From Castor canadensis (Eukaryota; Chordata; Mammalia; Rodentia; Castoridae), in assembly GCF_047511655.1 (NCBI RefSeq), contig NC_133389.1, forward strand, positions 41,275,295-41,339,294: DNA of 64,000 nt, given 5' to 3'. Of this stretch, positions 43,851 through 45,430 are shown piece after piece; position 1 is the first letter of the stretch; the number at the start of each line of letters is the position of its first letter. The translations under genes and the position numbers were made by a program. The notes beneath the pieces were generated by a model. That model searched no databases and was not told the DNA's origin. It worked only from the letters and a program-made list of their open reading frames with translations.

Positions 43851-43939
43851 TACTTACTTTCTAACAGGATGAATTGGTGGAATCGTGATTTCCAATTTAT
43901 AAAAGGAAAAAAGAAAAAGAAAGGAAGAAAAAAGTTAGT
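43851..43939 (-). promoter_or_regulatory. Unusually strong splice-signal array around the microexon candidate
   Basis: Read on the gene strand: an aactaac branch-point match with its branch A at 43935; an uninterrupted run of 34 pyrimidines (43934-43901); a further 39 bases ending at the AG (43862-43861); three bases; then gtaagta (43857-43851). No AG dinucleotide occurs in the 74 nt between branch A and the acceptor. Such a long AG-free zone with a distant branch point is known for tiny or tightly regulated exons. The order and strength of the elements are unlikely by chance in intronic sequence. Confidence 0.6.
43858..43860 (-). other. ASXL3: Candidate 3-nt microexon of ASXL3 (AAA)
   Basis: On the gene strand the bases are gttag|AAA|gtaagta, a 3-nt unit between a valid acceptor and a strong donor. 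It lies in intron 2, 2,666 nt upstream of exon 3. Exon 3 begins in phase 2, so a 3-nt exon would keep the frame and add one residue. If exon 2 ends in AG, as the Ser codon at the junction suggests, a Ser codon would become Arg-Asn. ASXL1 and ASXL2 carry an extra Arg at the same place (E-M-R-S-G-T-S or E-I-R-S-G-T-S, against E-T-S-G-T-S in ASXL3, from memory). I recall that ASXL1 makes this residue with a 3-nt exon. The splice signals are seen; use as an exon is inferred. Confidence 0.5.
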
Positions 43940-45430
43940 TTTCTAACATAAAACACAATTCTTTATTTTACCATTTCAGTATATAGGACAATGTTCAGAA
44001 CTAGGCCAGTCTTGGATTTGGCTGACTATGGGGAGGTCAAGAGGAAAAATGAGCCTTGGGCTATAAAGTGACTTGGAATTTCCTCCTTAATACTTCTACA
44101 GTGTGTCCACTTTGTTCACAATGCACATGTATTTCCATATTACAAATATTACAAGAAAAAATAAGCAGGACAATATTTGTCCCCAGTTCTTTTCTTTCTT
44201 CCATTTCCTATAACGGGCCCTTTCCTATACACCTGCCAGGGTAGATATACAGCTTATTCTATTTATTTGTTTTTCCCCCTGGACTATAGGGTTGTGGAAC
44301 CCTTCTGGTTTGTTTTCATTTCCCACAACCCCTGAAGCAGAAAAGGGGTGGAATTTGGAGGCAGGAGAGCAGGCATAATTTAAAACTGTCTAGACATCAA
44401 AGAACCCCCAGAGACACTTTGCAGAGCCCCAGTGCTGTGTGAAATACAGAAAAAACATTGCTTTATATCATCAAATCACTGGTGGTACACATAAAAATTT
44501 CCTAATGCTGAATATTTTGTGAAGGGAAGTATAGCCCATCTACTTAAATAATTATAAAAAACAGGACAAATACTTGGGGAATGTTATTGAAAGGCTATTT
44601 ATGGACACGACAAAGAAATATCATAACCACAGGCTCCATTCCTTTACACATAAAAAATGCTTTATAAGGTAATAGTTAAGTATTCCAAATCTTAAGCTAT
44701 TTTATTATATCAATGTAGCTCATATTTAGTAAAAAATTTAGATGGAAATGATTTCTTATAAATGTTTTAAAACCTTTTTTCAAATATGGGAAAACAAAAA
44801 AGTAATCCTATACAATATAAATCTAAAATTTCAACAAATTCAATAAGCAATTATAAAGCACCATTATTAGACAGTTACTATGTTAAATGCTATTAATATA
44901 AATAATTATATGCTCATTTTCCTTTCAGAAAATCAATAATAGCTTCTTTTAAGTATTCCCCCAGTTAGCGTTGAGAAGATATCTTAATCATAAGGGATAT
45001 GTTTTTAAGAGTAAATTATGTGATCCTCTCCGGCACAGATGAGACTTTAATTGTTGTTAGAGGATCTTTATGCTCACTTTGTGAAAATTAAATTGTTTAT
45101 ACTTCAGATTTGTGTACTTGGCTGTATGCATGTGATACTTCACAAAAATGTTTCTAGCATGTTAAAAATGAATAATACACCCTGGGATTTATTTGGGTAT
45201 AAATAAATTCACCAGTAAATGATATGCCTTCAAAACATACTTACTGACACTGTGTACATCAGAGGATAAACAGGTAACCTAGATGATCAAAAACTACTCT
45301 AGAAAAATCAAGACCAAATTAAATTCCTACTCTTAAAAAATATTATTGCTACTGAGGAACTCTCTAAAATGAATGAAAATAAAACACATTAAAATTATTT
45401 AAAATGAAGGCATATATGTTATCTGAGTAA

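Follow-up and report, generated by a model that had tools for sequence, protein, structure and literature searches.

A candidate 3-nt exon in intron 2 of ASXL3 from Castor canadensis and matching sites in ASXL1 and ASXL2

The window analysed here, a stretch of 64,000 nt of Castor canadensis DNA, harbours part of a gene which we take to be ASXL3 from its protein sequence, a name that is backed by its exon 3, which matches ASXL1 in the PDB. The coding strand is the minus strand of the window. Exon 3, exon 4 and later exons of the gene lie within the window (Table 1), whereas exon 2 lies outside of it and was found in the same genome beyond the window. The last visible bases of exon 2 are TTA AAA GAA ACA AG, followed by GTCAGT, the boundary being our own reading of the genomic DNA. 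The coding part of exon 1 spans 54 nt in this genome. For exon 2 we assume a length of 83 nt and a peptide the end of which is supported by the genomic letters. Intron 2 is approximately 33 kb long. Within this intron, 2,666 nt (about 2.67 kb) upstream of exon 3, we found a candidate 3-nt exon, AAA.

A first-pass annotation of this DNA had described a branch-like AACTAAC, a run of 34 pyrimidines and the sequence ttag/AAA/gtaagta (slashes mark exon borders), all of which were confirmed on the minus strand. The stretch lacking AG, given there as 74 nt, was measured as 80 nt, and the distance from the branch-type A to the G of the AG is 74 nt. Of the 10811 AGs that the gene strand carries over 164 kb of the ASXL3 region, 85 have an AG-free zone of at least 80 nt. 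Splice sites were scored with approximate matrices, which do not give MaxEnt scores. The 5′ splice-site score of the candidate is the same as that of ASXL3 exon 3, which likewise ends in AAA/gtaagt. The five genuine exons of the window have 3′ splice-site scores of 2.45, 4.51, 8.68, 9.53 and 11.69, compared to 5.11 for the candidate. Without filtering, and by the approximate matrix, the candidate ranks third among the 232 AG/NNN/GT sites on the minus strand of the window, and the two sites that outrank it have an AG-free zone of just 2 nt each. Within intron 2 of ASXL3 it is the best of 111 AG/NNN/GT sites. Prokaryote and viral contigs contained no exact match to 22 bases spanning the candidate, a search that is uninformative on mammals.

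Table 1. Positions in the window of the ASXL3 exons and of the signals around the candidate 3-nt exon
Feature	Position	Strand	Remarks
Candidate 3-nt exon AAA	43858-43860	minus	read from sequence
5′ splice site gtaagta	43851-43857	minus	approximate-matrix score 7.72
3′ splice site ttag	43861-43864 (AG = 43862-43861)	minus	approximate-matrix score 5.11
AG-free zone, 80 nt, upstream of 3′ splice site	43863-43942	minus	
Pyrimidine tract, 34 nt, uninterrupted	43901-43934	minus	38 nt from AG
Branch-site-like AACTAAC, branch-type A at 43935	43934-43940	minus	inferred from consensus
ASXL3 exon 3, 109 nt, HARE-HTH part	41191-41083	minus	phase 2 entry, begins TGG
ASXL3 exon 4	39807-39699	minus	
ASXL3 later exons	23774-23653, 14445-14328, 3444-3281	minus	

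We searched the same genome with the protein (E up to 10; the five best candidates were scored) and obtained three matches, ASXL1 (C5), ASXL2 (C12) and ASXL3 (C4). Retrocopies with or without the triplet were not found among these five best-scoring candidates. ASXL1 was named by its match to the PDB sequence, and C12 we take to be ASXL2. The comparison covered 30 kb of sequence preceding the ASXL1 exon, 70 kb in the case of ASXL2 and, for ASXL3, a further 100 kb outside the window. Intron 2 has a visible or almost visible start in ASXL3 and ASXL1, and its start in ASXL2 was placed tentatively from splice-like letters. In ASXL1 intron 2, the top of 9 AG/NNN/GT sites reads ctatag/AAG/gtaaatt, and in ASXL2 intron 2, the top of 126 such sites reads ctccag/AAG/gtaagaa. 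The counterpart in ASXL3 is gttag/AAA/gtaagta, with the triplet AAA instead of AAG. When the whole regions were ranked by summed score, the ASXL1 site was third of 126 (30 kb) and the ASXL2 site second of 245 (70 kb).

The AG-free zones at the matching sites span 85 nt in ASXL1, 81 nt in ASXL2 and 80 nt in ASXL3. The 5′ splice-site scores are 7.53, 10.41 and 7.72, and the 3′ splice-site scores are 5.36, 6.03 and 5.11, respectively. In all three genes the exon after the triplet begins with TGG. The ASXL3 site shares its position with exon 3 of the ASXL family, between an exon 2 that ends in AG in phase 2 and the 109-nt HARE-HTH exon. Since signals that match stand in the corresponding intron of ASXL1 and ASXL2 in this genome, the ASXL3 site is probably real, and at the level of sequence the two paralogs lend good support to reading it as a genuine 3-nt exon of the ASXL family. 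The earlier annotation had named a 3-nt exon of ASXL1 before the 109-nt exon. This statement agrees with the AAG signals found in intron 2 of both ASXL1 and ASXL2, and a 3-nt exon 3 has been published for the ASXL family (PMC5644247, in the part of the text available).

The sequences flanking the sites were compared as well, using sites with an AG-free zone of at least 60 nt and a pyrimidine run of at least 12, on both strands. The ASXL2 and ASXL3 flanks aligned with a score of 39, which was reached by none of 82 other sites of the ASXL3 region but by 2 of 35 sites of the ASXL2 region, and in about 1 of 300 random pairs. Since this score is also met by ASXL2-region sites and random pairs, common descent of the flanks is not proven. 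The best match between the ASXL1 and ASXL3 flanks was out of register. The flanks of L002 and L003 contain repeat-like stretches (GGGTTTGAACTCAGGG and GGGTTTGCACTCAGAG, respectively) that resemble rodent-type SINEs, whereas in the window itself exact SINE probes had no informative match. The ASXL1 exon (L003, about 1501-1611) is 106 nt long here, compared to 109 nt in ASXL2 and ASXL3, and encodes NSRGEG where ASXL1 in the PDB has NSRGGEG, a deletion of one Gly. The AG-free spacing is nearly constant at the three ASXL sites (80-85 nt), which may be a splicing requirement for so small an exon.

Insertion of AAA between exon 2, ending in AG, and exon 3, beginning with TGG, is predicted to change Ser-Gly to Arg-Asn-Gly. 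Since ASXL3 exon 2 does end in AG, the predicted change from Ser to Arg-Asn holds. Both the phase 2 entry of the 109-nt exon and this exchange, as proposed in the first-pass annotation, are borne out by the two exon ends. The triplet AAG predicts AGA AGT, hence Arg-Ser, provided that exon 2 of ASXL1 and ASXL2 likewise ends in AG. We assume that the ASXL2 protein has the extra Arg. In the PDB entries 8h1t and 8svf, ASXL1 has Arg-Ser at residues 47-48 (KEM-R-SGTSP). Arg47 is one Arg more than is encoded by ASXL3 exon 2 joined directly to exon 3, so that the extra Arg claimed for ASXL1 is present in both entries. The candidate insertion in ASXL3 would supply Arg as in ASXL1, followed by Asn instead of Ser. 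The changed residue had been placed inside or at the edge of the HARE-HTH domain. It lies inside the Pfam HARE-HTH match (10-80, or 10-81 with the insertion; 80.4 versus 79.4 bits) and not at its edge. Going by the likely placement of the helices, we take the insertion point to be the turn between two HARE-HTH helices.

Published exon counts for human ASXL3 are inconsistent. In the available parts of the sources, each human ASXL transcript is described as having 13 exons, of which exon 3 measures 3 nt (Dinan et al. 2017, PMC5644247), and 13 exons for ASXL genes are repeated in a review (PMC9450349). In contrast, ASXL3 is given 12 exons in the clinical papers PMC7282141 and PMC6579994, and PMC13393785 agrees with the lower count: the NM_030632.3 variant c.138-1G>A is there called intron 2, and codons 1-84 are assigned to exons 1-4. 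Exon arithmetic places codon 84 in exon 4 only without the 3-nt exon. With a coding exon 1 of 54 nt and the assumed 83-nt exon 2, intron 2 would end at c.138-1. As the clinical numbering, in the excerpts available, has c.138-1 in intron 2 and codon 84 in exon 4, it cannot accommodate a 3-nt exon, and the clinical ASXL3 reference transcript appears to skip it. The 3-nt exon is likely to be the difference between the 12- and 13-exon descriptions of ASXL3, as far as these partial texts go.

From the genomic letters, we consider it likely that the site is the ASXL3 counterpart of the ASXL-family 3-nt exon 3, still usable and used in part of the transcripts. Alternatively, ASXL3 might have inherited the 3-nt exon and stopped using it, so that its signals would now be decaying. 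This would be consistent with the 12 exons of the clinical ASXL3 reference (PMC7282141, PMC6579994 and PMC13393785, as far as available), with the triplet AAA where ASXL1 and ASXL2 have AAG, and with the UGC elements within 60 nt upstream of the 3′ splice site, of which there are 3 in ASXL1, 1 in ASXL2 and 0 in ASXL3. However, the CTAAC, the GTAAGTA and the 80-nt AG-free zone, of a kind found at only the 85 AGs counted above, are all intact, and an unused site would not be expected to keep such a zone for long. Moreover, a microexon has been reported in mouse Asxl3, although the available text does not give its place (PMC8355340). We therefore regard such a relic as rather improbable.

To define comparable sites we used a filter (3′ splice-site score at least 4, 5′ splice-site score at least 7, AG-free zone at least 60 nt) with thresholds that were chosen post hoc, after the three sites were known. 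Over 263,706 bases and both strands, three sites passed it, and each of the three genes contributes a single one, located in intron 2 and on the gene strand; on the opposite strands of these bases, we found none. The same filter gave a mean of 0.067 sites and a maximum of 1 on 30 first-order Markov sets. A fairer control is provided by 15 other exon lengths (30 length-strand sets), for which 9 sites were found, 7 on the gene strand and 2 on the opposite strand. This amounts to about 0.3 sites per set, whereas a length of 3 nt yields three sites on the gene strand. That these other lengths give sites at all is what would be expected if the ASXL3 site were a chance splice-like sequence unrelated to ASXL1 and ASXL2, and an intron of 33 kb together with post hoc thresholds raises the odds of one match. 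Nevertheless, we think this very unlikely, as the top site lies in the one intron where ASXL1 and ASXL2 predict a 3-nt exon, has a similar AG-free zone, and the opposite strands are empty. Hardly credible is a poison exon of 168 nt (43858-44025, minus strand) with an in-frame stop that would use the 5′ splice site gtaagta, because its upstream AG, despite a 3′ splice-site score of 8.40, is unremarkable (in the ASXL3 region, an AG as good as this one precedes 104 of 372 strong GT sites at a distance of 50-300 nt), and because it would explain neither the AG-free zone nor the match to ASXL1 and ASXL2.

If the site is a usable counterpart of the family exon, as we prefer, the branch point would lie some 75 nt upstream, next to the long pyrimidine tract, and scanning without an intervening AG could reach the distant ttag. 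The remote branch point and tract may hold the U2 side at a distance from U1, and the long spacing would leave U1 room at gtaagta despite the exon of 3 nt. This suggests a candidate rule, by which the spliceosome gains room at 3-nt exons from an AG-free zone of around 80 nt. Partial inclusion might result from a pyrimidine tract that is far from the AG and may attract repressors, for instance PTBP1, and from the absence in ASXL3 of the UGC elements that ASXL1 and ASXL2 possess. Skipping would lead to the usual Ser form and inclusion to Arg-Asn in the HARE-HTH turn.

We also considered that skipping stems from a weaker 5′ splice site caused by the final A of the triplet. This was dropped, as the score of ASXL3 (7.72) is not below that of ASXL1 (7.53) and as ASXL3 exon 3 ends in AAA/gtaagt too. 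With 5′ and 3′ scores of 7.72 and 5.11, ASXL3 is hardly weaker than ASXL1 (7.53 and 5.36), and the splice-site scores therefore do not explain skipping. A tentative and rather doubtful extension of the preferred reading is that, of the three ASXL genes, only ASXL3 has come to use as a regulated switch what was a constitutive 3-nt exon. The long CU-rich tract would repress AAA outside neurons, and neuronal release would insert Arg (Ser to Arg-Asn) in the HARE-HTH helix-turn. Neuronal ASXL3 would then resemble ASXL1 and ASXL2 at this loop, while other cells would have the shorter loop.

Truncations of ASXL3, a brain gene, lead to Bainbridge-Ropers syndrome. Should AAA be included in brain, the clinical ASXL3 reference would miss a coding exon in the HARE-HTH domain, and nearby splice variants would be invisible to the current clinical annotation of the gene. 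ASXL3 would have a second protein form with one added amino acid, and the three ASXL paralogs would lend themselves to comparing a single residue at this loop. Already known, from the parts of the sources available, are the 3-nt exon 3 of the ASXL family (PMC5644247) and a microexon in mouse Asxl3 (PMC8355340).

The latter was described in mouse brain, where the microexon is preferentially found in circular RNA (Rahimi et al. 2021, PMC8355340, partial text). Rat Asxl3 is among the genes with splicing changes in the spinal cord after nerve injury, the event being unspecified in the available text (PMC13240960). In the open-access literature naming both, as far as its texts were available, ASXL3 and microexon are otherwise mentioned apart. 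No paper naming ASXL1 together with microexon or micro-exon was found in the open-access literature searched, and Asxl or ASXL is absent from PMC7821500 and PMC7697094. Mouse circ-017054 of Asxl3 is listed with 422 nt and its exons unstated, and human hsa_circ_0108271 with coordinates only, in the excerpts available. In the available part of their paper, Li et al. (2015, PMC4317164) describe a lower T content next to alternatively spliced micro-exons and a higher one farther than 20 nt upstream. The ASXL3 candidate site shows the same layout.

Among the known systems, SRRM4-type (eMIC) microexons are characterised, in the part of PMC8797185 available, by a long AG-free zone, a long pyrimidine tract, a CUAAY branch site and UGC in the vicinity of the 3′ splice site. 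The ASXL3 site shares the first three of these features but lacks a UGC within 60 nt upstream, and owing to this missing element we rejected its membership in the SRRM4 type. The 3-nt micro-exon of TLN1 (PMC4317164, partial text) indicates that this size is possible in mammals, although the gene is unrelated. The microexon of mouse brain Asxl3 (PMC8355340) belongs to the same gene and is shorter than 30 nt, but its place and length are absent from the available text, so that identity with our candidate is unproven. Compared to the AAG (Arg-Ser) of ASXL1 and ASXL2 in this genome, ASXL3 differs in having AAA (Arg-Asn). The candidate resembles the exon 3 of 3 nt in human ASXL transcripts (PMC5644247, as available) in its place, as judged via the ASXL1 and ASXL2 sites of this genome, and in its length, its phase 2 and the predicted addition of Arg plus one residue.
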